Below, piece after piece: positions 11,937 through 60,494 of a stretch of 64,000 bases of DNA (position 1 is the stretch's first letter; every line of letters starts with the position of its first letter). The stretch is taken from positions 1-64,000 of the IMG/VR virus record IMGVR_UViG_3300009448_000012; one strand, given 5' to 3'. Both the position numbers and the translations under genes were made by a program. The stretch is from a virus. The notes below the pieces were generated by a model. The model worked only from the letters and a program-made list of their open reading frames with translations. It had not been told where the DNA came from and did no database searches.

Positions 11937-11982
11937 TATTCGCCGCCGAACCCGTCCACAACCTACAATTGGGGCCCGAACT

Positions 11983-16022: not shown

Positions 16023-16058
16023 GTGTCCTCGGTTTATGTGAAAGGGCAGGGTCGCAAA

Positions 16059-33496: not shown

Positions 33497-33514
33497 GTTC
33501 GAGTCTCCAGATGT

Positions 33515-33547
33515 GAAAAAGGGACGGTCGCGATACACGGCCGCCCC
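33515..33547 (-). terminator. Rho-independent terminator after the beta-barrel gene
   Basis: On the minus strand GGGGCGG (33547-33541) pairs with CCGTCCC (33527-33521), one wobble pair included, and is followed by TTTTTC. It lies 50 bases downstream of the beta-barrel gene stop and just upstream of the 33496 start. Confidence 0.6.
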
Positions 33548-33597
33548 TTCACTTCGGTCCGCCGCTTCGGCTTATGCCTGGGCTGACGGTCGCGACG

Positions 33598-34651: not shown

Positions 34652-34670
34652 CGGTGTTCGTCCTAGTGAA

Positions 34671-34715
34671 GAAAAATCCCGGCCGGGAGATGCAAGCAGG
34701 GCGTGACCGGCCGGG
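34671..34715 (-). terminator. Rho-independent terminator
   Basis: On the minus strand CCCGGCCGG (34715-34707) pairs perfectly with CCGGCCGGG (34686-34678) around a 20-base loop and is followed by ATTTTTC. It lies 25 bases before ATG 34651, so it could also act as an attenuator. Confidence 0.62.
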
Positions 34716-34748
34716 TCGGGCTTTGGAGAATGCCCACGCCCGCTTGTT

Positions 34749-35783: not shown

Positions 35784-35804
35784 CACACATTCTCCATTTT
35801 GCGT

Positions 35805-35820
35805 TCCGGGGAACCCCGGA
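35805..35820 (-). promoter_or_regulatory. Palindrome containing GGGGAACCCC
   Basis: TCCGGGGAACCCCGGA is a perfect palindrome, 22 bases before ATG 35783. Its core is the same decamer found in the leader cassettes at 44.8-51.3 kb, but here the ribosome site (TGGAG) is separate from it. Confidence 0.5.
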
Positions 35821-35942
35821 CCGGATGGAACCAAGTCCACCAAGTAAGGCGTTGCTTGTTTCTTTGGCAGCTTTCCGTTCCAACGTTTGTTAGACTGCGC
35901 TTGGAACGGTAAAGGATCAGTGGGGCCTGTCTTCTGATTACT

Positions 35943-35971
35943 AATGTATGCTCACTTGTGCTCACCGTCAA
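35943..35971 (-). promoter_or_regulatory. Promoter P35.95 with direct-repeat operator
   Basis: On the minus strand TTGACG (35971-35966), a 17-base spacer, and TACATT (35948-35943). The spacer contains TGAGC twice at a 10-base period. It reads toward 35783 and overlaps the stop of the 35968 gene. Confidence 0.62.
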
Positions 35972-40041: not shown

Positions 40042-40226
40042 GGGCGGGTTCTCCGTAAGCTTTGAATGATCGACGCCGCGTCCGCCATGATGCCGGCGAC
40101 GACGTTCGGCGCGTAAGGGATGTCGTCGACCACGGTGTCGAGCAGTTCGGTCAGGACGTGGTCGACCGTCTTTCGGCTGATCCGCATGGGACCGCGTTCC
40201 GCCTGCTTTTGCCTGACCGTGGTCAT
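40038..40226 (-). CDS. Small hypothetical protein
   Basis: A 62-residue basic protein with a helical centre (SRKTVDHVLTELLDTVVDDI; VVAGIMADAASIIQSL). Four-base overlaps link it to both neighbours. Longer forms starting upstream are possible but lack a better ribosome site. Confidence 0.58.
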   Translation of the reverse strand: MTTVRQKQAERGPMRISRKTVDHVLTELLDTVVDDIPYAPNVVAGIMADAASIIQSLRRTRP

Positions 40227-40630
40227 GCGGGTCGCTCCGGCAAGGCTTGAGCGCGCGCCCATTGGTCCCGCCAATAGCTGATCTCGTTGCGAAGGAAGGC
40301 TTCGTCGGTCAGCATGCGCGGGTCGGCTCGACGCCGGGTTATTTCCGCTCGACCGGCGTCGGTCATCTTCTCGCGAAACTGCTCGATCAGCGCGTCGAAG
40401 TCCTCGATCGTGACGGACGCCGGCTTACCGGGCTCCACCTTCACGAACGCCCGCACGGCGCGATAACCGAACTTCGTCGCATAGTTCGTCGTCACCGGGC
40501 GCTTACCGCGCAGCACGTCCGAGACGTCGCCGGCGTGCATGCGGTTGTCGACCGCCCATTTCGTCATTGACTTGCCGCTGGCCGCGATGCCGGCGCGGAT
40601 GATCTGCCGCATCTCGTCTTCGCTGATCAT
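40223..40630 (-). CDS. XRE-like DNA-binding protein
   Basis: A 135-residue protein with a Cro/CI-type helix-turn-helix at residues about 18-45: SGKSMTKWAVDNRMHAGDVS followed by DVLRGKRPVT. The recognition helix would be AGDVSDVLRG. The C-terminal half is a helical, charged domain. It is the clearest regulator candidate in the window and could bind the GCTCA-N5-GCTCA operators, but nothing proves that. It is co-transcribed with the small membrane and helical genes around it. Confidence 0.68.
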   Translation of the reverse strand: MISEDEMRQIIRAGIAASGKSMTKWAVDNRMHAGDVSDVLRGKRPVTTNYATKFGYRAVRAFVKVEPGKPASVTIEDFDALIEQFREKMTDAGRAEITRRRADPRMLTDEAFLRNEISYWRDQWARAQALPERPA

Positions 40631-43253: not shown

Positions 43254-43501
43254 TTGGCGGACACCTTCAGGGCGAATCGGATGTGGCGGGCATAGACCGC
43301 GACGGCTTTCCAGTAGGCGGCCATCGGCGCTTTATGCCTGACCCAACTGTGTTCGGCGGCCGCGCGGGCGTCCTGTGACAGCTCATATAGAAGCTGTTCT
43401 AGGGCGACGCGGGCTTCCGGCGGAAGCTCCGCGATCTTCTGTGCGGCCGGCAAGCGCAAGATCGGATTGCGCGTTTCGGGCTTCGTGCTGCGCGCGGTCA
43501 T
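43250..43501 (-). CDS. Helical hypothetical protein
   Basis: An 83-residue helical protein (AAQKIAELPPEARVALEQLL; AYWKAVAVYARHIRFALKV). No motif. Four-base overlaps with both neighbours. Confidence 0.62.
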   Translation of the reverse strand: MTARSTKPETRNPILRLPAAQKIAELPPEARVALEQLLYELSQDARAAAEHSWVRHKAPMAAYWKAVAVYARHIRFALKVSAK

Positions 43502-43836
43502 TTCTTCCTCGCATTCAACTGGTCAGCGAAGCGCGCGGCGCCTTCCTCGGTCTTGTAGAGCACGGGCATCGCTCCACCGTCGCGGCGCGTCGTGCGGTTC
43601 CACGACCGGCCGTCAAGGTGCCGGATAGTCCATCGCTGGTTGTCCGGATTGAACACCGGGCGCCACGGCGTGAGCACGTCGAGCGCGGCCGGGATCTCGA
43701 CTTGCAATTCCTCGACCGTGTTCAAGCCGAAGTGAATCGCTAAATCATCCTCACCGGTCATCTTGTCGATCGCTTCGTATTTGGCGGTCAGCACGGCCGC
43801 GATCAGCGCGCGGACCTTCTCGATCTCGACCTTCAT
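43498..43836 (-). CDS. Small beta-alpha domain protein
   Basis: A 112-residue protein. Residues 1-45 are helical; the C-terminal domain reads QRWTIRHLDGRSWNRTTRRD then VLYKTEEGAARFADQLNARK. This is the W-x-I, D-G turn, Y/F-x-T-x-x-x-A and LN pattern repeated in this genome. Paralogous to 43833 and 44456. Confidence 0.68.
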   Translation of the reverse strand: MKVEIEKVRALIAAVLTAKYEAIDKMTGEDDLAIHFGLNTVEELQVEIPAALDVLTPWRPVFNPDNQRWTIRHLDGRSWNRTTRRDGGAMPVLYKTEEGAARFADQLNARKK

Positions 43837-44186
43837 TTGGCTGTTCCTCTGGTCTCGGCGTGCCGTTCGCTGTTCAGTTCGTAGGCGCGGCGCTCGGCGG
43901 CTTCGTGCTTGCCGAACGTGATCGCCCTGGTCGACCCGCCCTTGGCCAAGCAGCCATAGAGCGCGCCGGTCGCGTGGTCGCGGATACCGAACCGGCCGCC
44001 GACCGTCTCGACTTTGAAGTCCTCGATCATGGTGAACTCGGCGCGGATCGCGTCGCCGATCTGATCGGCGATCCAGGCGTGATCGTCGACCATCGCCCGG
44101 AACAGATCCGGCGTTTCTTCGAGTTTTTCCATCGTGCGGTCGATCGCGGCGAGCGCGCGGGCAATGACGTCCTGTTCTTTCAGCAT
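43833..44186 (-). CDS. Small beta-alpha domain protein
   Basis: A 117-residue paralogue of the genes beside it. N-terminal helices (ALAAIDRTMEKLEETPDLFR) are followed by GGRFGIRDHATGALYGCLAK and ITFGKHEAAERRAYELNSER. The same LN ending closes the helix. Function unknown. Confidence 0.68.
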   Translation of the reverse strand: MLKEQDVIARALAAIDRTMEKLEETPDLFRAMVDDHAWIADQIGDAIRAEFTMIEDFKVETVGGRFGIRDHATGALYGCLAKGGSTRAITFGKHEAAERRAYELNSERHAETRGTAK

Positions 44187-44190
44187 GGGA

Positions 44191-44466
44191 TCACCGCCAG
44201 TAAGTCACGCCGTCGTCGCACAACCATCCGGTTTTGCCGGAGATCACGACCACGGACACAGGGTTCGTTCCGGACGGTGCGGACGGGTTCACCGTGACGC
44301 CGGTCGACCTGCTGGTCTTGCCGACGACGCGGCACGCGTGCTCGACCTTGAAGGCTTCCCATGTCTCGGTTTCTCGCGAGGACATGACGACAGCGACGAC
44401 GACGAACAGGACGACCGTCACGGAAAGGGCGACCAGCAAAGGCAACGTGTGATCTCTATTCGACAT
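44191..44466 (-). CDS. Membrane protein with periplasmic cysteine pair
   Basis: A 91-residue protein. The span LPLLVALSVTVVLFVVVAVV is followed by a periplasmic-style domain with HACRVVGKTS and GKTGWLCDDGVTYWR, whose two cysteines could form a disulfide. Such small proteins are common in alphaproteobacterial phages. It overlaps the upstream gene by 11 bases. Confidence 0.66.
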   Translation of the reverse strand: MSNRDHTLPLLVALSVTVVLFVVVAVVMSSRETETWEAFKVEHACRVVGKTSRSTGVTVNPSAPSGTNPVSVVVISGKTGWLCDDGVTYWR

Positions 44467-44836
44467 CGGACATCGCCTTTCTGATCGCTTCGTTCAGCGC
44501 GAACGCGCGGCGCTCGGCGGCCGCCTGGGTCTTGTAGTAAATCGGGTACCGCCGGCCGCCACGGCCGCGCGTCTGTTCGAGCACGGTCCCGTCGAGGTGT
44601 TCGACGACATACCGGCCGCCGTGGCTGTGCTTCGCGGTCCACAGGGCGCCGCGCTTGAATTCCTGGTTGACCTCGATCACCGCGCGTTCGCGCACCATCG
44701 CGGCGCCGGCGAGGATGCCGGCGATCGTCAGTTCGTTGTCCGGCGTTTCCTCGATCGTGGCTGCGTACTTTTCGACGAATTCCAGCGCGCGCAGCAACGC
44801 GGCGGTGACACGGTCGATCGTGTTCTGTTCGGTCAT
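44456..44836 (-). CDS. Small beta-alpha domain protein
   Basis: A 126-residue protein with an N-terminal helical part (DRVTAALLRALEFVEKYAAT) and the shared C-terminal module GGRYVVEHLDGTVLEQTRGR then IYYKTQAAAERRAFALNEAI. The palindrome GGGGAACCCC (44838-44847) covers its ribosome site. Confidence 0.68.
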   Translation of the reverse strand: MTEQNTIDRVTAALLRALEFVEKYAATIEETPDNELTIAGILAGAAMVRERAVIEVNQEFKRGALWTAKHSHGGRYVVEHLDGTVLEQTRGRGGRRYPIYYKTQAAAERRAFALNEAIRKAMSDVE

Positions 44837-44837
44837 T

Positions 44838-44847
44838 GGGGAACCCC
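44838..44847 (-). promoter_or_regulatory. GGGGAACCCC ribosome-site palindrome without hairpin
   Basis: Here the cassette is reduced to the palindrome, because the upstream gene's stop lies at 44847-44849. No GC hairpin precedes it. Confidence 0.5.
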
Positions 44848-45026
44848 TAAGAGATGATTGCCAAGGTGATGATTAAGCCGGTCAGGATAATGGTCACGAA
44901 GATGATCGGACCCGCCCGGCGCTGGAGGTTGTAAGTCGCCTTGTACCGGCGCCACGGGTCCGAGAGGACGAACAGGGCGGCGCCGGCGAGGACCAACAAG
45001 GCGAGGGTTAGCGGTGTGATGGTCAC
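44847..45026 (-). CDS. Small membrane protein with two spans
   Basis: A 59-residue protein starting at GTG 45026. Spans are LTLALLVLAGAALFVLSD and GPIIFVTIILTGLIITLAII, with a basic loop (WRRYKATYNLQRRAG) between. The GTG lies inside ACCTGTGACCAT, a one-mismatch, minus-strand relative of the polar 12-mer. Function unknown. Confidence 0.55.
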   Translation of the reverse strand: MTITPLTLALLVLAGAALFVLSDPWRRYKATYNLQRRAGPIIFVTIILTGLIITLAIIS

Positions 45027-45030
45027 AGGT

Positions 45031-45636
45031 TCATTCCCCGCGCAGCCATTGACGGATCAAGTCCAGGTCGTCGAAGTCCTGGTCGTTCATCATGCAAATG
45101 ACGTCGAGCATGAACCGGACGTTCTCGCGCGACACCGGCTTGCCGGACGCAAAAAGAAAGCGGGACATGATCGCGGTCGCCTTGTCGAAAGTGCGAACCT
45201 TGGTTTCTTCGGTCACGGCCTCGGCGACCAGGGCTGACGACGCCTTCAGCGCGTCGACGACCGGCGCGGTCGGGCGCTGCTCGACCAGCTCGTGACGGTG
45301 GGCGACGTAATCCAGCATTTCTTGCTGGTACGCGCGCAGCTTGGGCGCGCGCGGCGTCGCCAGCGCGGCCGCTTCCTCGGCGGTGAGCTTCTTCCCGCTG
45401 ACGACCGCGTGTTCGGTCTTGTCGGCGTACAGAACGGGCGACATGCTGTACCGACCTTGCGGGTCGATTGCCTCGACGCCGTCGATCACGCGGATCGTGC
45501 GGCGGACTTCCTCGCCGCGAACCTTGATCCACACGCATTTGTCGGTGCGGCGGATGATCTCGAAAGCGAAGATGGTGTCATAGTCGGCGCTGGAGCGGGC
45601 GGCGTAGGACTGGCCGGGAACGAATTTGATGGTCAT
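45031..45636 (-). CDS. Hypothetical early protein
   Basis: A 201-residue protein. The N-terminal half is strand-rich (KFVPGQSYAARSSADYDTIF; KCVWIKVRGEEVRRTIRVID) and ends in GRYSMSPVLYAD, a combination I associate with small conserved phage proteins. The C-terminal half is helical. The start ATG 45636 follows a full leader cassette (45637-45689). Confidence 0.66.
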   Translation of the reverse strand: MTIKFVPGQSYAARSSADYDTIFAFEIIRRTDKCVWIKVRGEEVRRTIRVIDGVEAIDPQGRYSMSPVLYADKTEHAVVSGKKLTAEEAAALATPRAPKLRAYQQEMLDYVAHRHELVEQRPTAPVVDALKASSALVAEAVTEETKVRTFDKATAIMSRFLFASGKPVSRENVRFMLDVICMMNDQDFDDLDLIRQWLRGE

Positions 45637-45689
45637 GACGGGGAACCCCTTGAGAGTGGCGGGCGCCGCGCGGGCGCCCTGGTTGGTGG
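45637..45689 (-). repeat. Leader cassette, variant B
   Basis: Between two genes. GGGCGCC (45661-45667) and GGCGCCC (45673-45679) form a 7-base stem with five-base loop; GGGGAACCCC lies at 45640-45649. Confidence 0.7.
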
Positions 45690-45842
45690 TCAGTTCTTGC
45701 GGAAGCTGCGAACGATCTCGCGACGAAAACCGGGCGAAAGCTGGTGCCACTGATCCTCGGTCCCCGCGAACGCGCCAAGCGCGACGGCTTCGGCGTGGGT
45801 CGGCGTCGGGCTGGCAGGCTTCCATGCGTGATATCTGGCCAT
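45690..45842 (-). CDS. Small hypothetical protein
   Basis: A 50-residue protein (ARYHAWKPASPTPTHAEAVA; WHQLSPGFRREIVRSFRKN). It is the first gene after promoter P45.9 and sits between two leader cassettes. Function unknown. Confidence 0.58.
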   Translation of the reverse strand: MARYHAWKPASPTPTHAEAVALGAFAGTEDQWHQLSPGFRREIVRSFRKN

Positions 45843-45923
45843 CTTGGGGAACCCCTTGAGAGAACCGGGCGACACCGCGCCGCCCGTGCTTTCGTTTCTA
45901 TAGGCTCACTCGTGCTCAGTCAA
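45843..45923 (-). promoter_or_regulatory. Promoter P45.9 with leader cassette, variant A
   Basis: On the minus strand TTGACT (45923-45918), then TATAGA (45902-45897) at 15 bases or TAGAAA at 17. The spacer holds TGAGC twice at a 10-base period. CGGGCG (45866-45871) and CGCCCG (45881-45886) form the hairpin; GGGGAACCCC is at 45846-45855. The helicase stop codon lies inside the promoter. Confidence 0.68.
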
Positions 45924-47334
45924 GCGGTATGTCACTAAATCGTTCCAGGGTGAGCGGGTCGACGTGCAAGTGATGTTGCGCCCTGGTGATCGCGACATAG
46001 AACAGCCGGCGTTCTTCCAAGCTGATGTTGGCGTCGTCGTCCTCGGCGTCGCCGCGCATGAAGTCGTCATTGATCGCCACGGAAGGCCATTCCAGCCCCT
46101 TGGCCTTGTGACCCGTGGCGAGCGTGACGCAACCTGTCACCGGCTTGTCGCGGATCTGCTCCAGGACCCGCCGGAGCTTGCTACAGCCGTATTTGCCGAC
46201 CAGATTGACGAAGACCTTCAGGGACGCCCCTTCGTCCGTGGCGGCGTATTCCTGGACCTTGCTCCAGGTCTCGAAACCAAGCAGCTCGCCGGCCTTGGGC
46301 AACCGGCCGTTCTGAAGCCCGTCCGCGTCGTCGACCAGCGCGCGCAGCTCGCCGGCGCCCTTGGGCGTGTAGACGATCCGGCCGGCGTCCAGATACCGGA
46401 AGGCGTTTTCGATCAGCCCGGTGTTCGTGCGGACCAGGACCGCGTCGACGCCGGCGGGACGACCGCCGCTGACGGTGTCACGAATGACGCTGTGACCATG
46501 AAGCGGGTACTTTTCGCCCATGGCGGTCAGCACGCCGTTCGCGGCGGCCGCGATCTGGTCGCCGAAGCGGAAGGACTTCGTCAGCCGGCATTCATGACCC
46601 GGCAAGATGGTCAGGGCGTCTTTGGCGCCGCGCCATGCATAGATCTGCTGATGACTGTCGCCGACCGCGATGATCTGGGCTTCCTGGTTCCGGATCACGC
46701 CGAGGACGACGCCGTTCGTGTCCTGGGCTTCGTCGACCAGGATGAAGTCGAACCGCAAGCGCGGATTGCTCAGCGCCCAAAGCTTCACGTATCCGTCGCC
46801 GCCCAAGGGCATGTCGTCCGCCGGGTCGGTCATGTGCGACCAGACGTCGGCGGCCGCGACCGGCGCCCATTTATAGAAGAATTCCTGGACCTCGGTCGTC
46901 ATGCCGGGCACGCGCGGAACAAAGAATTCCGTGATCGAGCGCGAATCGGACTGACAGAAACGGGTCAGCACGCTGGCGACGATCGACTTGAAGATGTCCG
47001 GGTTTACCGGAAGCTTGTCCTTGACGCATGAAATGTCGAAGCTCCAGGACTTCGGCGACTTGCGAAGCTTGCGTTCCGGGTCGAACCCGCGATCGGCGAC
47101 CGCGCGAAAGGCGAGGCTGTGCGTCGTGCGGCACTCGACGTTGTAGGGGAATTTCAGGCGGGCGTCGGTCGCAACCGACGTGTTGAACGCCATGTAAAGC
47201 CCGCGATAGGTCTTCATCTGGATCGCGAAATTCACAAGGGTCGAGGTCTTGCCGGCGCCGGCGAAGGCGATGAACTTCGTCGGGAGCCGCTTCATCGCAT
47301 AGTCGATCGCGTAACATTGTTCGGGCGTGAGCAT
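45916..47334 (-). CDS. Superfamily 1 helicase, UvrD/FBH1-like
   Basis: A 472-residue ATP-dependent DNA helicase for replication or recombination. Walker A is FAGAGKTSTL (Lys about 29). Motif II is LVDEAQD (about 201-205). Motif III is GDSHQQIYAWRGA, motif IV-like KSFRFG, motif V TGHKAKGLEWPSV, and motif VI RRLFYVAITRAQ. It is short because 1B/2B subdomains are reduced, as in FBH1-type phage helicases. It ends inside promoter P45.9. Its upstream neighbour is four bases away. Confidence 0.9.
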   Translation of the reverse strand: MLTPEQCYAIDYAMKRLPTKFIAFAGAGKTSTLVNFAIQMKTYRGLYMAFNTSVATDARLKFPYNVECRTTHSLAFRAVADRGFDPERKLRKSPKSWSFDISCVKDKLPVNPDIFKSIVASVLTRFCQSDSRSITEFFVPRVPGMTTEVQEFFYKWAPVAAADVWSHMTDPADDMPLGGDGYVKLWALSNPRLRFDFILVDEAQDTNGVVLGVIRNQEAQIIAVGDSHQQIYAWRGAKDALTILPGHECRLTKSFRFGDQIAAAANGVLTAMGEKYPLHGHSVIRDTVSGGRPAGVDAVLVRTNTGLIENAFRYLDAGRIVYTPKGAGELRALVDDADGLQNGRLPKAGELLGFETWSKVQEYAATDEGASLKVFVNLVGKYGCSKLRRVLEQIRDKPVTGCVTLATGHKAKGLEWPSVAINDDFMRGDAEDDDANISLEERRLFYVAITRAQHHLHVDPLTLERFSDIPLD

Positions 47335-47338
47335 GGCG

Positions 47339-47701
47339 CTAGACCTTCAGGAATTGAACGGGAAGCTCGGGATCATATGCAAGGATCTCGGTCACTTCCT
47401 TCGCGGTCAAAGGCTTGCCGTCCGTCTTGCCGTTCACCGCGACATATCCGCCGGCGATCTTGCTGGTCAACGTGCTGACATGGATCACGACGCTGATCGG
47501 ATAGGTCACGACGGGAAGGTTCGCGCGATAGACGACTTCGACCTTCAGTTCAGCTTTGTCGCGAAGCCCGGCGACATAGGTCTTGCATGCGACGAGCGTG
47601 GGGAATTTCGTGAACAGCTCGCGGGCGGCGTCTTCGCGCGTGTCATGCGCGGTGGAGCACACCGGACCGTCGCCGCGTATGATGGCTGAAGCAGTGAACA
47701 T
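47339..47701 (-). CDS. Hypothetical protein
   Basis: A 120-residue protein, mixed strands and helices (FTASAIIRGDGPVCSTAHDT; AELKVEVVYRANLPVVTYPI). It lies directly upstream of the helicase gene, so it is likely co-expressed. Function unknown. Confidence 0.62.
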   Translation of the reverse strand: MFTASAIIRGDGPVCSTAHDTREDAARELFTKFPTLVACKTYVAGLRDKAELKVEVVYRANLPVVTYPISVVIHVSTLTSKIAGGYVAVNGKTDGKPLTAKEVTEILAYDPELPVQFLKV

Positions 47702-47754
47702 GATGGGGAACCCCTTGAGAGTGGCGGGCGCCGCGCGGGCGCCCTGGTTGGTGG
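47702..47754 (-). repeat. Leader cassette, variant B
   Basis: Stem GGGCGCC (47726-47732) with GGCGCCC (47738-47744), loop five bases; GGGGAACCCC at 47705-47714. Sequence nearly identical to the copy at 45637-45689. Confidence 0.7.
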
Positions 47755-47958
47755 TCAGCGGGCGAAATGGGTCCAGTGTGCGTTCAGACGGTCGCGATCG
47801 GTTGCGCCGGCATAAAGGGAGTGGACACCGGTCGGACCGTACATCCGAAATTCGTTGTCACTTTTGCAGTAAATCAGCTTGCAAGTCCGGTCGGCGCTCA
47901 TGACGAAAGCACCGGACTTATTGAGAAGCTTCGCGAACTGTTGGGTCGTGATATTCAT
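47755..47958 (-). CDS. Small hypothetical protein
   Basis: A 67-residue protein (TTQQFAKLLNKSGAFVMSAD; CKLIYCKSDNEFRMYGPTGV). It has two cysteines in a strand region and stands between two leader cassettes. Function unknown. Confidence 0.6.
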   Translation of the reverse strand: MNITTQQFAKLLNKSGAFVMSADRTCKLIYCKSDNEFRMYGPTGVHSLYAGATDRDRLNAHWTHFAR

Positions 47959-48011
47959 TTGGGGAACCCCTTGAGAGTGGCGGGCGGCTCGCGGCCGCCC
48001 TGGTTGGTGAA
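47959..48011 (-). repeat. Leader cassette, variant B with compensatory stem change
   Basis: The stem is GGGCGGC (47982-47988) with GCCGCCC (47994-48000) instead of GGGCGCC/GGCGCCC, so both sides changed and pairing is kept. GGGGAACCCC at 47961-47970. Confidence 0.7.
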
Positions 48012-48143
48012 TTATTTCCGAGGCGCTTTGATAGTGGCTTCAAGGGCGGCGATACGGCGGACCATTTCTTTTCTTGTTATCATGCCGTCCCGGTGGTGTT
48101 GCTTGGCGTCTTCGATGTACAGCTTGACTTCATCGTTCGTCAT
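48012..48143 (-). CDS. Very small helical protein, 43 residues
   Basis: TNDEVKLYIEDAKQHHRDGM then RKEMVRRIAALEATIKAPRK, a charged helical hairpin. It is the first gene after promoter P48.2. Its start is fixed by the cassette ribosome site. Function unknown. Confidence 0.52.
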   Translation of the reverse strand: MTNDEVKLYIEDAKQHHRDGMITRKEMVRRIAALEATIKAPRK

Positions 48144-48223
48144 CTGGGGAACCCCTTGAGAGAACCGGGCGACACCGCGCCGCCCGTGCAACAAGTCATA
48201 AAGGCTCACTTGTGCTCAGTCAA
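48144..48223 (-). promoter_or_regulatory. Promoter P48.2 with leader cassette, variant A
   Basis: On the minus strand TTGACT (48223-48218), 17 bases, TATGAC (48200-48195). Spacer holds the TGAGC direct repeat. An AT-rich palindrome, ATTAAAAATCTTTTTAAT (48225-48242), lies just upstream like an UP element. Hairpin 48166-48186; GGGGAACCCC 48146-48155. Confidence 0.78.
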
Positions 48224-48237
48224 GATTAAAAATCTTT

Positions 48238-48864
48238 TTAATTTTTCCAGGCGTTGAGCGCCGCGCGTGCGGCTGCTTCCCTGGTGGCGAAGCGGCGGAA
48301 ACCGCCGGAAATGGTCACAAGGTCCTGATAACTCGCACCGTCGAACTTCCACGCGGACCAGCGCTTGTTGCTTTTGACGCCGCTCGACCCGGCCGTCGAG
48401 ACGGTGACGGTGATGACCTTGTCGCCGTGACCCTTGATCACCGTCTTCCATTGCCGGGCGCTTGAACCTTGCAAGAACGTCTGACCGCCGATCTCGAAGC
48501 TTTCCAGCTTGGCGGCGCGGGTCGCTTCGTCGCGGGCGTCCGCTTGGGCGATGCGATGGTCGAGGTCGGTTTTGCCGGTGCTGTCGATCGGCAGGGCGCG
48601 CAGCTCGGCGGCGACGTTGCTGCCCAACGCAACACCGCGATGAACCGTCGCCTCGATCCGCATGTCGCCGACGCGGGCGAAGGCTTGCGTATACCGGATG
48701 ACGACGGGATGACGCTCCAGGCGGACCAGGATGTCGTCGAGGCATTCGCCCATGTTCAGCGCGAGCGCGAACACGCGATTGACGAAGCGGGTTTCGCGGG
48801 TCTCGCCGGCGTCGATCGCGTCGGCAAGTTCGGCGTTGGTCATGGTCTTGATCGGTTTGGTCAT
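48238..48864 (-). CDS. Hypothetical protein ending in the beta-alpha module
   Basis: A 208-residue protein. The N-terminal half is helical (TMTNAELADAIDAGETRETR; LNMGECLDDILVRLE). The C-terminal part, KTVIKGHGDKVITVTVSTAG to FRRFATREAAARAALNAWKN, matches the shared module with F-x-T-x-x-x-A-x-x-A and LN. It ends at the UP-like element of P48.2. Confidence 0.65.
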   Translation of the reverse strand: MTKPIKTMTNAELADAIDAGETRETRFVNRVFALALNMGECLDDILVRLERHPVVIRYTQAFARVGDMRIEATVHRGVALGSNVAAELRALPIDSTGKTDLDHRIAQADARDEATRAAKLESFEIGGQTFLQGSSARQWKTVIKGHGDKVITVTVSTAGSSGVKSNKRWSAWKFDGASYQDLVTISGGFRRFATREAAARAALNAWKN

Positions 48865-48922
48865 AGCGGGGAACCCCTTGAGAGTGGCGGGCGCCGGCGA
48901 TGCCGGGCGCCCTGGTTGGTGA
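48865..48922 (-). repeat. Leader cassette, variant B, longer stem
   Basis: The stem is extended (about 48889-48912) with GGGCGC and CGGC on one side and the matching bases on the other. GGGGAACCCC at 48868-48877. Confidence 0.65.
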
Positions 48923-49105
48923 TCAGCGGCAGGACAGGACGAAGGCGAGAGCGGTCCTCGGCGACTTGGCTTGAACCCAGCCATTGTTACAGCGAAGGAC
49001 GCGGCGATCGTCGTCGTCGTAGCACAGATATAGGCCGTGCTCGTTGCAGGTCTTGAGCGCTTCGACGACCATGTTCCAAGATGTGGAGCGGCGGCGGAAT
49101 GTCAT
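48923..49105 (-). CDS. Small hypothetical protein
   Basis: A 60-residue protein (STSWNMVVEALKTCNEHGLY; DDDRRVLRCNNGWVQAKSPR), with a helix followed by strands and three cysteines. Cassettes flank it on both sides. Function unknown. Confidence 0.58.
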   Translation of the reverse strand: MTFRRRSTSWNMVVEALKTCNEHGLYLCYDDDDRRVLRCNNGWVQAKSPRTALAFVLSCR

Positions 49106-49158
49106 AACGGGGAACCCCTTGAGAGTGGTGGGCGCCGCGCGGGCGCCCTGGTTGGTGA
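49106..49158 (-). repeat. Leader cassette, variant B
   Basis: Stem GGGCGCC (49130-49136) with GGCGCCC (49142-49148); GGGGAACCCC at 49109-49118. One base differs from the 45637 copy in the hairpin foot. Confidence 0.68.
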
Positions 49159-49323
49159 TTAGATCAGGCGAGATTCGACCCAATGGATTTCACCGAATGC
49201 GTCTTCGAAACGCCAAGCCATTTTAGAGGCTTCTGTTTCTGAAACGAAAGTCATGGGCGTGCGGTCTTGGTTGCAAACCAGCATGAATTTGTCGTTTTGC
49301 ATGAAACGGATGACGAAGATCAT
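49159..49323 (-). CDS. Small beta-alpha domain protein
   Basis: A 54-residue protein consisting of the shared module alone: IFVIRFMQNDKFMLVCNQD, then TFVSETEASKMAWRFEDAFG. It is the first gene after promoter P49.4. Function unknown. Confidence 0.58.
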   Translation of the reverse strand: MIFVIRFMQNDKFMLVCNQDRTPMTFVSETEASKMAWRFEDAFGEIHWVESRLI

Positions 49324-49404
49324 ATCGGGGAACCCCTTGAGAGAACCGGGCGACACCGCGCCGCCCGTGCAACAAGTCATAAAGGCTCACTTGTGCTCAG
49401 TCAA
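49324..49404 (-). promoter_or_regulatory. Promoter P49.4 with leader cassette, variant A
   Basis: TTGACT (49404-49399), 17 bases, TATGAC (49381-49376), TGAGC direct repeat in the spacer, hairpin 49347-49367, GGGGAACCCC 49327-49336. About 100 bases are practically identical to P48.2, including the AT palindrome upstream. Confidence 0.78.
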
Positions 49405-49418
49405 GATTAAAAATCTTT

Positions 49419-49619
49419 TTAATTCACGACCCGGTATTCGAGGCGCGTCAACCATCCCGACATATCGGGAAATCCGTCCGGGTCGGTGTATCCGTCCAGC
49501 CCGATGAACCGGCTTTCGCCGGTGTGCTCGCCGGTCAGTTGGGTGATGTAAACGATCAAGCCTTCCTGGATCAGCATGAAGCCGACACCGTCTTTCGCGA
49601 GCACCGCCCTTGTGATCAT
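49419..49619 (-). CDS. Small hypothetical protein
   Basis: A 66-residue protein of mainly strands (VLAKDGVGFMLIQEGLIVYI; ESRFIGLDGYTDPDGFPDM). ATG 49619 has AAAGGG before it without the palindrome, and lies in CCTTGTGATCAT, a degenerate relative of the polar 12-mer. Function unknown. Confidence 0.55.
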   Translation of the reverse strand: MITRAVLAKDGVGFMLIQEGLIVYITQLTGEHTGESRFIGLDGYTDPDGFPDMSGWLTRLEYRVVN

Positions 49620-49643
49620 GATGCTGAACCCTTTGGTTGAATG

Positions 49644-49991
49644 TTACCGGCGAACCGGCTTGCGTTTGGGAAGGTCCTCGACGATCTCGCGTTGCTCGCC
49701 GGGCAAGCCCGACCGGTTGTCGCTGTAGGCTTGCGCAAGCTCGCGCGTCTCGAAGCGCATGTGCGCGCCGCGATTGGCGATGAACCATTTCCACACGACC
49801 CGCCCTTCGAACCGGTACCGGATGCGGAAGCGGCGCGGACCGTCGTCGACCTTCTTCACCAGCCGACTGACGACCTCGAACAGCTCGGACAGGCGCGGGC
49901 ACATCGTCGGGCCGATCGGAAGCGCGACGATCTCGGCGAGCAGTTCGCGGGCTTCCTGCGCGGTCATGTCGACCTGGATTGCGTCGGTCAT
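49644..49991 (-). CDS. Small beta-alpha domain protein
   Basis: A 115-residue protein. N-terminal helices (AQEARELLAEIVALPIGP; LSELFEVVSRLVKKV) precede RFRIRYRFEGRVVWKWFIAN and RFETRELAQAYSDNRSG, the shared module. The C-terminus is basic. It overlaps the upstream gene by four bases. Confidence 0.64.
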   Translation of the reverse strand: MTDAIQVDMTAQEARELLAEIVALPIGPTMCPRLSELFEVVSRLVKKVDDGPRRFRIRYRFEGRVVWKWFIANRGAHMRFETRELAQAYSDNRSGLPGEQREIVEDLPKRKPVRR

Positions 49992-50224
49992 GACTGCTCC
50001 GCCTTCAGCTCGATGATCTCGAAATGGACGTCGGTGATCAGTTCTTGCATGTGATGGCGGATGCGCAGTTCGGCTGATGCGCGGGACGCGGCGAACTGCG
50101 CATAATGGCGGGTGACGCCTTGGGCGGTTTCGCCGACGATCAGCCACGCGAACGGGCGGATGCGGGCGGTTTCCTGATTCGGAATATTCAGGACGTGACC
50201 GGTCGTGAAGATGACTTGCTTCAT
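49988..50224 (-). CDS. Small hypothetical protein
   Basis: A 78-residue protein: KQVIFTTGHVLNIPNQE, RPFAWLIVGETAQGVTRHYA, and a helix (ASRASAELRIRHHMQELITD). It starts at a cassette ribosome site. Function unknown. Confidence 0.62.
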   Translation of the reverse strand: MKQVIFTTGHVLNIPNQETARIRPFAWLIVGETAQGVTRHYAQFAASRASAELRIRHHMQELITDVHFEIIELKAEQS

Positions 50225-50281
50225 GGGGGAACCCCTTGAGAGTGGCGGGCGCCGGCCGGAGCCGGGCGCCTTGGTTGCGGC
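50225..50281 (-). repeat. Leader cassette, variant B, longer stem
   Basis: The stem between about 50247 and 50270 combines GGCGCC and GCCGG segments; GGGGAACCCC at 50226-50235. Confidence 0.62.
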
Positions 50282-50965
50282 CTAGTCGAGGATGAAGGTT
50301 TTCAGCCAAGCGGGGCCGTGCGAGTTGCGCAGGGCGTACACGACGGCTTCGGCGTCGGTGGTGGTGACGGCGCGTTCCCAAAGCTTGCGGATGTCGCGTT
50401 TCCAGTTGCGCGAGTCGCGAATGATGAAGGTCGTCAGGGCGGCTTTTTGCTCGGCGGTCAGCGGGGCGTGAGCCGCCTTGCGGCCCTTTCGGGCCGGTTT
50501 GGCGGGCTTGGCGGCCGGCGTGTCGTCGACGACCTCATAGGTCGTTCCGTCGCGGCTGGCGGCGACATAGGTCGCCATGCTGGCTTCAGCGCCGGCGCGG
50601 GTTTCGAAACGCGCATCCTGGTTGCTGCTACCGTTGCCGATGTGGAACGACCGGCCGTCCTTATAGGTGTACTTGATCCGGAAGGGCTGGCGGGCGGTCA
50701 GCTCGGCTTTCCACGCCTTGGCGTCGTGCTCGACGGTCGGGACGATCTCGATCGCGCCGTCCGTGGTCTTGCGAGCGGACTGCCATGCTGCGGCGGCTTT
50801 CTGTGCGAGGTCGTGACGGCTGCTGAAGCCGGTTTCAACCGCGTTGCCGTACTTGGGATGGTTGCTGACGGCTTTCCAGGCGAAGGCGAGCTTCATGGTC
50901 GTCGAGCGATGGACGAAGGAACCGTCCTTGAAGGTGGCGACCAGGGTGATTTTTTTGGCGGGCAT
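50282..50965 (-). CDS. Multi-part protein with beta-alpha modules
   Basis: A 227-residue protein. Two related units are visible: ITLVATFKDGSFVHRSTTMK then SRHDLAQKAAAAWQ, and FRIKYTYKDGRSFHIGNGSS then RFETRAGAEASMATYVAAS. A basic alanine-proline linker (AKPAKPARKGRKAAHAPLT) and a helical C-terminal domain follow. The start is at the cassette of P51.0. Function unknown. Confidence 0.66.
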   Translation of the reverse strand: MPAKKITLVATFKDGSFVHRSTTMKLAFAWKAVSNHPKYGNAVETGFSSRHDLAQKAAAAWQSARKTTDGAIEIVPTVEHDAKAWKAELTARQPFRIKYTYKDGRSFHIGNGSSNQDARFETRAGAEASMATYVAASRDGTTYEVVDDTPAAKPAKPARKGRKAAHAPLTAEQKAALTTFIIRDSRNWKRDIRKLWERAVTTTDAEAVVYALRNSHGPAWLKTFILD

Positions 50966-51045
50966 TGGGGGAACCCCTTGAGAGAACCGGGCGACACCGC
51001 GCCGCCCGTGCAACAAGTCATAAAGGCTCACTTGTGCTCAGTCAA
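50966..51045 (-). promoter_or_regulatory. Promoter P51.0 with leader cassette, variant A
   Basis: TTGACT (as TTGACTGAGC; -35 at 51045-51040), 17 bases, TATGAC (51022-51017). Hairpin 50988-51008 and GGGGAACCCC 50968-50977. The upstream AT palindrome differs by one base from P48.2 and P49.4. Confidence 0.78.
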
Positions 51046-51259
51046 CATTAAAAATCTTTTTAATTTTCGGGATCGCCGCGACGCTGGTTTCAGGGTGGAT
51101 CTTACGGAACTTGACCGCCGGCTTACGGACGTTGCGACCGTACTGGTCGACGATGGTCACGCCGGCGCGACCGCGCGATGCGTCGCGGATCTCGGTCAGG
51201 CTGGCGAACGCCTTGGGCTCGATCTCGCCGGTGCTGGTGTTCTTGACGCGGTATGTCAT
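51038..51259 (-). CDS. Small hypothetical protein
   Basis: A 73-residue basic protein: MTYRVKNTSTGEIEPKAFAS, LTEIRDASRGRAGVTIVDQY, VRKPAVKFRKIHPET. Its last codons run into promoter P51.0. Function unknown. Confidence 0.58.
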   Translation of the reverse strand: MTYRVKNTSTGEIEPKAFASLTEIRDASRGRAGVTIVDQYGRNVRKPAVKFRKIHPETSVAAIPKIKKIFNVD

Positions 51260-51353
51260 GGGGAACCCCTTGAGAGGGCGACCGTCAGGTCGCTGTGAGA
51301 GTGGTGGGCGCCCGGCACGGACCGTTTAGGCCGTGGTGCGAGCGCCCTGGTGA
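51260..51353 (-). repeat. Leader cassette, expanded copy
   Basis: GGGGAACCCC (51261-51270) followed, in the upstream direction, by two hairpin-capable segments: GCGACC/GGTCGC around 51278-51295 and GGGCGC/GCGCCC between about 51307 and 51348. It looks like two cassette units joined. Confidence 0.55.
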
Positions 51354-51527
51354 CTAGCTGACTGCTTCGACCGAATAGATCACGTCCTTGTCGAGGTTGG
51401 CCATCTCGCACCGGACTGAGTAATTCTCGGCGGTGTGCCTCGTCAGCGGCTCGCCGCGCATGTTGGTCGTGGCGACGATCTCGACTTCGTTCGTGACCTT
51501 GTTCGTCTTAATGACTTGGTAGTTCAT
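51354..51527 (-). CDS. Small hypothetical protein, 57 residues
   Basis: NYQVIKTNKVTNEVEIVATT, then HTAENYSVRCEMANLDKDVI, a strand-rich protein. It is the first gene after the P51.6 promoter. Its pattern (a short strand, GEP turn, strand) resembles 51038. Function unknown. Confidence 0.55.
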   Translation of the reverse strand: MNYQVIKTNKVTNEVEIVATTNMRGEPLTRHTAENYSVRCEMANLDKDVIYSVEAVS

Positions 51528-51562
51528 GGCGCTTTCTCCAAAGCTTCGTTGCCGATGAACTG

Positions 51563-51591
51563 AACATAAGGCTCACTCGTGCTCACCGCAA
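51563..51591 (-). promoter_or_regulatory. Promoter P51.6 with direct-repeat operator
   Basis: TTGCGG (51591-51586), 17 bases, TATGTT (51568-51563). The spacer holds TGAGC twice at a 10-base period. It lies just after the DNA polymerase gene and drives 51527 leftwards. Confidence 0.62.
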
Positions 51592-51594
51592 GAC

Positions 51595-53655
51595 CTAAAA
51601 CAATAATTTATTGGTCTCGGCGATATAATGGTCGTAATCGATATCGGGAATGTGCTCGCCGTCATAAACGTCTTGTACCTTCACCTTGCGGGTATGGTGG
51701 AATTCGGCGTGTTCTTCGAATTCATATTTGTATTTGAAGCGCGGACCATGTTCGCCGCATTGCGAGCACCGAAAGTCGCCCTTGGGTCCGTAGCAGGTCG
51801 CCAGCAACTCGGCGAACAGCGCGAACCGGCGCCATTCGTCCGGCTTTTTCGCGGTGGGCGGCATCAGTTTGAAGATCGGCTGACCGGCCGGGCTCACGTA
51901 ATAGCGGGTTGTTTGCTGGCATTCGGTCCCGTCGCCGAGGATCAGCCGCGATTGCCCTGTGACCTTGGCGCGTGCGAGGAAGTCCCATTGGTCCGGGTGG
52001 CGGTGGATGAAGTCGGTCGGGTCATGATCATCACAAAGCGCCGCATCGGCCGCACGCGGGATCACCAACATCGAATGGTCCTTGTGCCACGCCTTTTGCT
52101 TGCCGACCTTCAGTTCGAAATCATAGGCGCCTTTGCGTTTCCGCTTGCCGGCTTCGTCCTTGTTGATCGCGTCCATGTTGTATTCGCCGATGTAGCTGTT
52201 CACATCGCGGATGAACATGCGCCCGTAATGCAGCTTCTCCAGCTTCATTTGCGTGACCGATTGCCACCAGTCGCACACCGCGTCGAACTGCGCGCGCATC
52301 ACGCGCGGAAACTTCAACGTCATGCCGTCCGTGTTGACCTGAAGGATCTCCAGGCTGGGCACGGCCGCCAGAAACCGTTCGGCCAGCATGACCAGCATGA
52401 GTTGCCCGTTCACCGTGATCGCCATGGTGTATTGCGGGTCGTAAAACGGTCCGTGCATGTTGTTCGAATCGCCGTAAACGCCGTTGTTCGCGAGCTTCAG
52501 CGCGTCGGACTTGACCATGTCCTTGATCGCCTTCGCCGCGACGCGTTGGGCTTTCAGCTCGCGATAGACCTCGACGAACAGCGGTCCGAGGTGGGCAGGG
52601 TACAAGCCCCATTCGATGGCGATCGAGGGATAGAAGGCTTCGACGTCGACGTCGACGATCTCGTAAATCGCGTCGGCGACGACCGCGCGCCGCGTCACCG
52701 ACCCGTGCAAGCCGCCCGTGCCGAACACCATCGTGAAGCCGTCGACGCTGGCCTTCAGGTTCTTGAAGACGCCCTTCGTCTCGACCTTGGCGGATTTCAG
52801 CTCGCCGGCTTCGATCTCCAGCGGGTTCAGCACCTTCGCCTTGAGCGTTTCGAGCACCGCGTTCGGTTCCGGATTGTCGAACCTGATCCACGGGAAGATC
52901 ACATCGGCAAGGGCGACGCTGTTCCGCCACGTCTGGCGCGGCTGGCGCCGGCCGTTGACCTTATCAAAGCAGATGCCGGGCGATCGTTCTTCGAGCGCTT
53001 TGGTGAAGAAGGATTTCCCGATTTTGGTGTCGTTATCGTTCAGATGACGTTCGCCGAGTTGTTCGCGAAACCCGATCATCTCCATCGTTTCCCAAGCGAA
53101 TTTCTTGGTACTGAACAGGTCGTTCCGGTTGTAGTCTAGACCGATATCCATTTCCGCATGCGTCAAGACCTTCGTATGATGGAAGGGCATTTCCTGGACG
53201 CGGCGGGCGCGCATGTTCATCTGAAGCGTCTTCAGGCTGGTCATGCGGTTCTTGTTGTCGAAATGGTGGATCAGCCGTAAGTCGACCTGCTTCACCAGTT
53301 CATCGCGATAGTGGACCCGGTGAATCCAGGACGGACCGCCTCGCTTGCCGTTCTCGATGATCTCGGTCGCGAACAGCTTCAGGTTCGCGCAGATCTGGAG
53401 CGCCGGCGTCCCGGCGTCGATCAGCTCGACCGCGCGGTGGATGATCGGATAGTCGAAACTGAGATTATTGAAGCCGTACATCCGGCGGAAATATCCGGAG
53501 CGCAGCACCGACACCATAAGAGGACCGTCGTTCCGGCGATCGCTGATTTCATAGATCCAGGTTGTATCGTCACCCTTGGTCAACGGGGTGAACCCTAGAC
53601 AGAACCAGTTCGGAAGGGTCTCGACGTCGCCGATGGTGTCGATCCATGCGTTCAT
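51595..53655 (-). CDS. DNA polymerase, family B
   Basis: A 686-residue replicative polymerase. Exonuclease motifs: DVETL (Asp10, Glu12), NNLSFDYP (Asp68) and DYNRND (Tyr175, Asp179). Polymerase motifs: A, DVEAFYPS (Asp337); B, KLANNGVYG (Lys387); C, VNTDGM (Thr442, Asp443). All catalytic carboxylates I can place are present, so it should be active with proofreading. Motif C has NTDG rather than the usual DTDS. It is short, without a long N-terminal domain. A C-terminal CxxC...H region (CSQCGEHGPRF) may bind zinc. It overlaps the DUF4031 gene by four bases. Confidence 0.9.
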   Translation of the reverse strand: MNAWIDTIGDVETLPNWFCLGFTPLTKGDDTTWIYEISDRRNDGPLMVSVLRSGYFRRMYGFNNLSFDYPIIHRAVELIDAGTPALQICANLKLFATEIIENGKRGGPSWIHRVHYRDELVKQVDLRLIHHFDNKNRMTSLKTLQMNMRARRVQEMPFHHTKVLTHAEMDIGLDYNRNDLFSTKKFAWETMEMIGFREQLGERHLNDNDTKIGKSFFTKALEERSPGICFDKVNGRRQPRQTWRNSVALADVIFPWIRFDNPEPNAVLETLKAKVLNPLEIEAGELKSAKVETKGVFKNLKASVDGFTMVFGTGGLHGSVTRRAVVADAIYEIVDVDVEAFYPSIAIEWGLYPAHLGPLFVEVYRELKAQRVAAKAIKDMVKSDALKLANNGVYGDSNNMHGPFYDPQYTMAITVNGQLMLVMLAERFLAAVPSLEILQVNTDGMTLKFPRVMRAQFDAVCDWWQSVTQMKLEKLHYGRMFIRDVNSYIGEYNMDAINKDEAGKRKRKGAYDFELKVGKQKAWHKDHSMLVIPRAADAALCDDHDPTDFIHRHPDQWDFLARAKVTGQSRLILGDGTECQQTTRYYVSPAGQPIFKLMPPTAKKPDEWRRFALFAELLATCYGPKGDFRCSQCGEHGPRFKYKYEFEEHAEFHHTRKVKVQDVYDGEHIPDIDYDHYIAETNKLLF

Positions 53656-53999
53656 ATGCGGGTCCTGGTCCTGGTTCGCGGGATGGTGCAGCGCATGCGC
53701 ATATACAGGGCGTCGAGCGCCGCTTGCGGGTCGGTGGGTAGCTCGCCGGTGATGTCCCGGATCATGCGCATCGCCGAGCACTGGCGCAAGGTGATCTCGA
53801 CGGCGCCGTGTGCGATCGCGGCCGCGCGCTTGGTCATGGCGACGTCGTAGTGATCGCCCTGGTACCAGTGCCGCGCCACGCCGATCGCGGCCGCCATGGC
53901 GTGCAATTCACCCTCGGTCGTCGCGATCATGTGCGACATGCGCATGCCGCGAAAGCGACCCATATCCGACCGGTGCATGTCGTCGACGAAGACCGTCAC
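53652..53999 (-). CDS. DUF4031 protein
   Basis: A 115-residue protein starting at GTG 53999. VTVFVDDMHR, the SHMIATTEGELHAMAAAIG segment, ARHWYQGDHYDVAMTKRAAA and GAVEITLRQ match DUF4031, a small family often found near phage replication genes. Conserved aspartates and histidines in VDDM and HYD suggest a metal site. Function of the family is not known. Confidence 0.82.
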   Translation of the reverse strand: MTVFVDDMHRSDMGRFRGMRMSHMIATTEGELHAMAAAIGVARHWYQGDHYDVAMTKRAAAIAHGAVEITLRQCSAMRMIRDITGELPTDPQAALDALYMRMRCTIPRTRTRTRI

Positions 54000-55612: not shown

Positions 55613-55828
55613 TCACACCGTCCCAAAGTCGTCGATGTGACGACCCTGGTCGTCATAGACGTGCATCTTCGTCATGGTCCCCGCATTGTCGGCGGCGACC
55701 TTCAGCGCCTCGACCAGGGTGTCGAAGTCGCCCTGGACCCAATCGCTTCCGTCGCGGTCGAAGGTGTCCACACCGACGACGCGGAATTTCCCCACGGGGG
55801 CTTGCAAGGTAGTGCGGACGAAGCTCAT
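55613..55828 (-). CDS. Small beta-alpha protein
   Basis: A 71-residue protein: FRVVGVDTFDRDGSDWVQGD, FDTLVEALKVAADNA, and MHVYDDQGRHIDDFG. This strand-helix-strand plan, with F-D-T-x-x-E-A before the helix, is shared by many small phage proteins. It overlaps the upstream gene by four bases. Confidence 0.66.
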   Translation of the reverse strand: MSFVRTTLQAPVGKFRVVGVDTFDRDGSDWVQGDFDTLVEALKVAADNAGTMTKMHVYDDQGRHIDDFGTV

Positions 55829-58767: not shown

Positions 58768-58827
58768 GGGGAACCCCTTTAGGGCGCTAGGGCCAGAGAT
58801 GGCGGGACGGTCGCGGCGACCGCCCGC
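58768..58827 (-). repeat. Leader cassette copy with palindrome and hairpin
   Basis: GGGGAACCCC (58768-58777), then the inverted repeat GCGGG-A-CGGTCGC / GCGACCGCCCGC (58802-58827) with one bulged A. This copy lies 7 kb away from the main group. Confidence 0.55.
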
Positions 58828-59776: not shown

Positions 59777-60432
59777 TTGGCGGGTTCCTTCGATTTGAAC
59801 TATTGGAGATGGGTCCGAATAGTTTTATGAACGAATTGTGGCGAAACCGAAAAGTTTGGACGTGCTCCGAACTTTGGTTTTAACTATTGGTCGGTTGTAG
59901 GAAAAGTTCGGTGCTACCGAAAACTATCGTTTGAACTTTTCCGACCTGCTCCGAATAGTTCGATTGACGGCAACTTACTGTCACGAACTTTTCGGTCGAC
60001 CTCCGAACTTTTCCGTTTCGCCACAATTCGTTCATAAAACTATTTGGTCGACCTCGGAAAAGTTCGGACTGCATTCAAATAGTTTTATGAACGAATTGTG
60101 GCAACTCCAAACTTTTCGGACCTGCTCCAAACTTTGGAAATCCGTTCATGTAGATGAACGGAAGTTTTCGTCGGTTGTAGGAAAAGTTCGGTGCTACCGA
60201 AAACTATCGTTTGAACTATTGGCGACGGCTCCGAACTTTTCGGTTTCGCCACAATTCGTTCATAAAACTATTCGGATGCGCTCCAAACTTTTCGGACCTG
60301 CTCCAAACTATTGCCCGAACTTTTCGTCGGTTGTAGGAAAAGTTCGGTGCTACCGAAAACTGTTCGATTAGCGGCAACTTGCTGTCACGAATTGTTCGGA
60401 GCAGGTCCGAACTTATTTTGAACACAATTGAC
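59777..60432. repeat. AT-rich mosaic of direct and inverted repeats; candidate origin
   Basis: A gene-free region. A 22-base unit beginning AGTTTTATGAACG occurs at 59821-59842 and 60081-60102 and inverted at 60020-60041 and 60248-60269. A 47-base unit (59891-59937, 60171-60217) recurs shortened at 60327-60361. A third unit with GGCAACTT-x-CTGTCACGAA occurs at about 59959-59990 and 60362-60393. GACCTGCTCC-type joints recur four times, once inverted. CCGTTCAT-GTAG-ATGAACGG (60142-60161) is a hairpin. The composition is far more AT-rich than the rest. Replication origin is the leading idea because polymerase, SSB-like and helicase genes lie on the same arm. Confidence 0.75.
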
Positions 60433-60494
60433 CCGCCCGCGCGGCGCTGCTTCCACGCGGGCGGACCCTGGTCGCCATAATCGGCCGGCGACCA
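60433..60494 (-). terminator. Two strong hairpins after the SSB-like gene
   Basis: CCGCCCGCG (60433-60441) pairs with CGCGGGCGG (60456-60464), and TGGTCGCC (60469-60476) with GGCGACCA (60487-60494). Both stems are perfect. They lie downstream of the gene ending at 60501 and border the AT-rich repeats. No U-run follows closely. Confidence 0.5.

Follow-up and report, generated by a model that had tools for sequence, protein, structure and literature searches.

Why does one short sequence stand directly before the start codons of so many small phage genes? The question is raised by a decamer, GGGGAACCCC, that recurs in a window of 64,000 nucleotides (nt) comprising bases 1-64000 of a 74,557-base IMG/VR virus record (IMGVR_UViG_3300009448_000012). 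The original prediction, made from the letters of the window, was that a hairpin plus GGGGAACCCC forms a modular leader cassette shared by many genes of the minus strand. We found that the decamer observation is sound and more structured than had been claimed. The answer that we favour, and regard as rather probable from the sequence, is that the phage carries a kit of standard modular expression leaders, in two forms, for the genes of its early region.

A decamer in one orientation at start codons

GGGGAACCCC has 14 exact matches in the window, whereas 100 dinucleotide-preserving shuffles give an expectation of 0.17 and never reached 14; the minus strand reads GGGGTTCCCC in all 14 copies, a single orientation. 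The positions listed originally were right for all but one copy (51260 rather than 51261). In 13 of the 14 copies, the decamer ends 0-3 nt upstream of the ATG of a called gene and the distance from the end of GGGG to the ATG is 6-9 nt, which bears out the Shine-Dalgarno position proposed for the minus-strand motif. CTCAAGGGGTTCCCC is exact in 11 of the 14 copies and the core AAGGGGTTCCCC in 12, the exceptions being TAGGGG at 44838 and CCGGGG at 35808; no further exact AAGGGGTTCCCC was found in the rest of the record (64001-74557). The decamer had also been called a palindrome next to the ATG. The proximity to the ATG held, save for the 35808 copy, which is not start-associated, but a perfect palindrome is ruled out by the two-base centre, AA/TT, which breaks the symmetry with the reverse complement and makes GGGGAACCCC an oriented interrupted inverted repeat.

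Two leader forms in a regular order

Eleven copies of the decamer lie within 5.6 kb (45640-51269). A hairpin accompanies GGGGAACCCC in 12 of the 13 start-associated copies (the copy at 44838 lacks one), and the proposed modular leader takes the form of two cassettes rather than one. The type A leader, with seven copies, fills an intergenic gap from stop codon to start codon (53-58 nt; 94 nt for 51260) and consists of ACCAACCAGGGCG, a variable hairpin and CTCTCAAGGGGTTCCCC, a layout that aligns in six of the seven copies, with small departures in 50226.

51260-51353, minus strand: type A leader, two-hairpin form (51306-51347 and 51278-51293)
50226-50281, minus strand: type A leader, hairpin 50248-50270
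49109-49158, minus strand: type A leader, hairpin 49130-49148
48868-48922, minus strand: type A leader, hairpin 48889-48912
47961-48011, minus strand: type A leader, hairpin 47982-48000 with a compensated base pair
47705-47754, minus strand: type A leader, hairpin 47726-47744
45640-45689, minus strand: type A leader, hairpin 45661-45679

The type B leader, with four copies, carries TTGACT, 17 nt containing the operator-like 15-mer TGAGCACRAGTGAGC, TATGAC (TAGAAA in 45846), a hairpin and the AAGGGGTTCCCC core. In three of the four, an AT-rich stretch lies upstream, which we presume to resemble an UP element. If transcription began 7 nt after the -10 element, the predicted transcript start would be ~2 nt before the stem.

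50968-51067, minus strand: type B leader with AT-rich stretch, TTGACT-17-TATGAC, 15-mer 51026-51040, hairpin 50988-51008 and AAGGGGTTCCCC 50968-50979
49327-49426, minus strand: type B leader, 15-mer 49385-49399, hairpin 49347-49367
48146-48245, minus strand: type B leader, 15-mer 48204-48218, hairpin 48166-48186
45846-45923, minus strand: type B leader in which the -10 and the upstream part have diverged, whereas hairpin and core are the same; 15-mer 45904-45918, hairpin 45866-45886

The weakly dyadic 15-mer occurs six times in the window compared to 0.01 expected, each time within a minus-strand promoter-like TTG...-17-TA... arrangement, including two sites apart from the type B leaders.

51563-51591, minus strand: promoter-like TTGCGG-17-TATGTT with 15-mer (51571-51585) and an ordinary ribosome-binding site downstream
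35943-35971, minus strand: promoter-like TTGACG-17-TACATT with 15-mer (35950-35964)

Down the minus strand the leaders follow in the order B-A, B-A-A, B-A-A, B-A, with some leaderless genes interspersed, and the promoter-like 15-mer site at 51585 heads another unit, the second gene of which has the A leader at 51260. Type B leaders thus head units and type A leaders serve inner cistrons. One more 15-mer, TGAGCACAAGTGAGC, was seen in reverse orientation at record position 65238, outside the window, between the divergent genes 64300-65208 (minus strand) and 65382-66929 (plus strand, with a helicase match).

Copies outside the two forms

Three copies of the decamer stand in other contexts.

58768-58827, minus strand: solitary core AAGGGGTTCCCC (58768-58779) with an unrelated upstream hairpin (58802-58827)
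44838-44849, minus strand: solitary core TAGGGGTTCCCC before the gene 44456-44836, in a 10-nt gap without a hairpin; it includes the stop codon of the upstream gene
35808-35817, minus strand: decamer GGGGTTCCCC that is not start-associated; 25 nt, including a purine-rich stretch, separate it from the ATG at 35783

The stray decamer at 35808 belongs to TCCGGGGTTCCCCGGA (35784-35825, minus strand) and sits inside a longer dyad; downstream of TCCGGGGTTCCCCGGA is a four-codon frame, ATG-GAG-AAT-GTG-TGA, overlapping the ATG of the gene at 35783. This copy, off a start codon, together with the dyad symmetry of the outer bases of GGGGAACCCC, would fit a DNA site for a phage protein, a repressor or silencer, in place of an RNA element, and the authors who described the extended start-associated sequences (ESAS) of cluster K mycobacteriophages preferred a DNA-binding role for these (PMC3203893). 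We nevertheless consider a DNA site quite improbable, given that a nearly symmetric sequence keeps one orientation in 14 of 14 copies and, in 13, a fixed Shine-Dalgarno position 6-9 nt from the ATG. The 15-mer, with one copy reversed, is the better candidate for a DNA operator.

Hairpin and ribosome-binding core

An alignment of the hairpins comprised six distinct sequences (five type A and one type B; seven rows, two of them identical). Pairing was possible in 94.2% of cells, compared to 40-60% with the partner slid by 1-3 columns, and one pair varies as C-G, G-C and G-U. Of the 13 motif gaps, all but the 10-nt one at 44836 were folded, and in each of these 12 the energy was below the shuffled mean. 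The leader hairpins were rejected as intrinsic terminators on sequence criteria, as no T-run follows them and a terminator scan of 44000-53700, which listed seven sites, all on the plus strand, with 11.4 expected, gave no minus-strand site. The minus-strand gaps at 33497-33597 and 34652-34748, on the other hand, have GC hairpins followed by ~five T and, unlike the leader hairpins, look like real terminators by sequence. An Rfam family for the leaders was likewise rejected, the sole match (E 0.8) being at 55732-55792, off the leaders.

Within the core, AAGGGG can pair with the anti-Shine-Dalgarno sequence, which we assumed for this analysis; TTCCCC cannot, yet it is present in 13 of 13 start-associated copies. 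Computed folding of the 13 leaders gave a mean probability of 0.17-0.74 for pairing of GGGG with its own CCCC and of 0.19-0.49 for AAGGGG being unpaired. The core could be a translational operator, in which a trans-acting phage or host factor would open or lock the GGG-GUUC-CCC fold over the Shine-Dalgarno sequence and ~13 unrelated genes would form one translational regulon, though we give this only a small chance of being right. Two other minus-strand genes of the phage encode a helix-turn-helix-like protein (40223-40630; phrog_925, E 7.6e-4) and an RNA-binding-like protein (32322-32732; phrog_986, E 1.5e-7), and their products are leads as candidate trans-acting factors, judged by these family matches.

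Unrelated genes behind the same leader

The original prediction held that unrelated open reading frames (ORFs) stand behind the same leader, and indeed no pair of the 13 proteins matched at a blastp E value of 0.01, which rules out paralogous genes as the cause of the shared leaders. Seven of the 13 were scanned singly, and none matched a Pfam or PHROGs family at E 0.001. When 61 early-region proteins, all 13 among them, were scanned jointly, three Pfam and seven PHROGs families matched one member each; for two of these matches, phrog_33250 (weak, unknown function) and Gp2.5-like, the member protein was not assigned. As far as these comparisons tell, the leaders precede orphan genes that are unrelated to one another. 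Conversely, three neighbouring genes (43498-44836, minus strand) encode related proteins, and the core is found only at 44456 and not at 43498 or 43833; the leader is therefore not tied to a gene family.

These features would also suit leaders that are mainly recombination joints, similar to the promoter early stem-loops (PeSLs) discussed below, where identical sequences let ORFs be swapped or gained and the expression signals ride along. The leaders span the distance from stop to start almost exactly, similarity ceases 0-3 nt before the ATG, the genes behind are unrelated orphans, one of three paralogues has the core while the other two lack it, and three type B leaders are nearly the same (compared to B48146, B49327 differs at two of 100 positions and B50968 at one of 100). 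Against this, no relative was found with a different gene at the same joint, and the solitary copies retain just the 10-12 nt core. Stretches of 10-12 nt are too short for efficient homologous recombination. On balance we think it unlikely that joints are the main role.

The clustering of 11 copies in 5.6 kb, the near identity of the three type B copies and the lack of a copy in the other genomes searched could instead reflect a recent local duplication of a spacer with no function beyond an ordinary ribosome-binding site. The divergence among copies makes this very improbable. In B45846, none of the 43 positions of hairpin and core is changed, whereas nine of 13 are changed in the -10 region and 17 of 22 in the upstream part. 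When the 40 nt upstream of the decamer were compared in register with a type A leader, 58768 matched at 20 positions and 44838 at 11. Mere duplication is disfavoured because these two copies, without the cassette context and one of them hairpin-free, retain the decamer; the retained hairpin structure despite differing sequences and the invariant TTCCCC, which has no anti-Shine-Dalgarno partner, also speak against it. The pattern fits selection on the core, or module exchange, better than one recent duplication, as far as sequence comparison can tell.

A proposed two-form expression kit

Given this anatomy, the leaders would function as follows. A type B leader would open a transcription unit with its promoter-like sequence and the operator-like 15-mer between -35 and -10, followed by a GC hairpin ~2 nt from the predicted 5´ end, AAGGGGTTCCCC and the ATG, while a type A leader would bridge two genes, from stop codon to start codon, with a hairpin and that core. 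A single phage or host DNA-binding protein on the shared 15-mer could set the timing of the units. The hairpin may protect the 5´ ends of head transcripts and the junctions within the messenger RNA, and may insulate each ribosome-binding site from its neighbour. AAGGGG would pair with 16S ribosomal RNA (rRNA) and CCCC would fold back on GGGG, giving each gene a uniform, partly masked start, such that any small ORF behind such a leader would receive standard expression. We favour this kit because the decamers are in such excess, in one orientation and at starts, with a regular order of head and inner leaders; because all six 15-mers of the window lie in promoter-like sites and the hairpin is retained despite sequence change; and because the hairpin and core of B45846 are unchanged beside a changed -10, no minus-strand terminator was found at 44000-53700, GGGG and CCCC can pair and the proteins are unrelated.

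Several observations weigh against the kit. The covariation support is modest, because 32 of 500 shuffles reach the score, and the folding p value is below 0.05 in just four of the 12 motif gaps. Several core-free gaps of 50-100 nt also hold hairpins, some of them stronger (before 64226, 35461 and 35134); intercistronic hairpins are therefore a wider habit of the phage, and the hairpin and the core may have nothing to do with each other. The putative type B promoters, whose -10 has no final T, went unlisted in the generic promoter scan. The partly masked translation start is a prediction from computed pairing probabilities. Finally, no relative with the leader was found in the collections searched that would show its conservation.

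Searches for relatives and source of the DNA

A megablast search with 40000-64000 found no match among 50,697 phage records. The DNA polymerase as a single query matched no viral contigs, and a five-member profile gave, among the 80 loci kept of 540 in viral contigs, a best identity of 45% and no motifs in the stretches scanned. The terminase query gave four loci, with 69-72% identity in three 4-5 kb contigs and 49% in one 53-kb contig. The exact core was absent from 13 records (four terminase and nine of the 80 polymerase loci), two of which had one one-mismatch match. Among the cassette genes, protein 50282-50965 had no match in viral contigs and only its 56-residue end was matched in phages (43% identical, Rhodobacter phages). 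Protein 48238-48864 had no match in phages, and helicase 45916-47334 had none in viral contigs and at most 38% identity in phages. CTCTCAAGGGGTTCCCC was found in no viral contig, and the 15-mer was found in six viral stretches, one copy each and none with GGGGTTCCCC in the DNA scanned. Looser motif patterns, found in seven viral and 15 genome stretches, were dismissed as chance, each having one match and no cassette context. A count of 12-mers recurring directly upstream of ORF starts came to 12 for this record and to 10 for the positive control with start-associated sequences, a 20.8-kb stretch of Mycobacterium phage Anaya; for 84 viral loci (1.03 Mb), with low-complexity 12-mers excluded, it was at most five. 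A seemingly start-associated repeat of Rhodobacter phage RcPutin turned out to be an iteron-like array.

In this DNA (GC content 62.8%), the plus strand carries genes for terminase, portal, capsid and tail proteins, and replication-type genes (DNA polymerase, helicase, exonuclease) lie on the minus strand; genes were called with a codon-score script rather than a standard gene finder. The best matches of the terminase were Paracoccus phage Shpa (54%), a faecal phage (49%) and Rhizobium phages (46%), and those of the DNA polymerase a Rhizobium phage and an unassigned phage (~40-43%), with Klebsiella phages near at 38%. The host of this tailed phage is likely an alphaproteobacterium. Among the structural genes (11148-17620, plus strand) are three proteins related to each other (11148, 12043 and 13355) and a related pair, 16059 and 16667, where the ORF spanning 16667 matches a methyltransferase family. 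Around 650 non-coding bases at 59790-60450 are rich in direct and inverted repeats, such as ATAGTTTTATGAACGAATTGTGGCGAAACCG and AAAAGTTCGG, and are possibly a replication origin or partition site.

Comparison with known systems

Cluster K mycobacteriophages carry start-associated sequences (SAS; GGGATAGGAGCCC) and ESAS (PMC3203893). Their role was left open at their naming in 2011 (PMC3203893) and is still termed ill-defined in a 2024 paper (PMC11373665). The leaders share with them a short conserved sequence in ~11-19 copies at the ribosome-binding position next to the ATG, a place in the non-structural half after genes that have large gaps, a core conserved beyond the bases able to pair with 16S rRNA and the layout of G-tract, Shine-Dalgarno sequence and C-tract. 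The ESAS of phage Adephagia contain SigA-like promoters with an inverted repeat (PMC11373665), and here too a subset, the B leaders, is extended upstream by promoter-like sequence with a repeated motif. Set beside the ESAS combination of a SigA-like promoter and an imperfect 15-17 base-pair (bp) inverted repeat, the B leaders have TTGACT-17-TATGAC/TAGAAA, unlisted by the promoter scan, and the weakly dyadic 15-mer. A likeness with a different sequence had been anticipated, and what we found in conservation past 16S pairing and in the promoter-like part of B goes further than that claim.

The sequence here is AAGGGGTTCCCC rather than GGGATAGGAGCCC. With up to two mismatches allowed, GGGATAGGAGCCC matched the 74,557-base record twice, both times with two mismatches and not ahead of a called start. 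Upstream, this phage has a hairpin of RNA type in which some change is compensated, whereas the ESAS repeats did not support RNA pairing, and a second, promoterless leader form for inner cistrons sets this phage apart. Cluster EF Microbacterium phages have an SAS, GGGAAAGGACCCC, whose ten copies occupy ribosome-binding positions and are all extended upstream (PMC7302621); they differ in sequence (GGGAAAGGACCCC was absent from the record), in an ESAS weakly conserved around GTAGAG and in their actinobacterial host. By analogy the leaders would function like SAS and ESAS, but we do not class them as members because the sequence differs. The literature collection searched listed no SAS-like leader for any alphaproteobacterial phage, which does not prove that none has been published.

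PeSLs couple a promoter and a stem-loop in T4-type phages, and the phage HGTV-1 has a similar motif (PMC4503421, PMC3950731). Like the four B leaders, they place promoter and stem-loop before many small genes of unknown function, and they have been proposed to aid modular shuffling; they are promoter-terminator motifs according to the title of Comeau 2014. Unlike in PeSLs, the hairpin here is downstream of the promoter, has no run of T and comes with a fixed ribosome-binding core. The 17-bp dyads of cluster O mycobacteriophages, some linked to deletions by recombination (PMC4351075), and the 18-bp inverted repeats of cluster EG Microbacterium phages (PMC7302621) resemble the leaders as many short intergenic inverted repeats, but are not at the ribosome-binding site (EG typically 14-22 bp upstream; cluster O around one third inside genes), and those of cluster O have no consistent orientation.

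Judged by sequence, the design is shared with the known SAS, ESAS and PeSLs and the sequence is different. If the core were a translational operator, the design of G-tract, Shine-Dalgarno sequence and C-tract would have evolved at least three times in phages of unrelated hosts (clusters K and EF and this phage). A case from beyond the actinobacteriophages that combines this G...Shine-Dalgarno...C layout with a different sequence and a clean split into head and inner leaders would suggest that phages in general equip small orphan genes with standard expression cartridges. Such a case would also make the role of start-associated sequences testable with simple reporters, and the leaders could be used as compact, insulated parts for expression.

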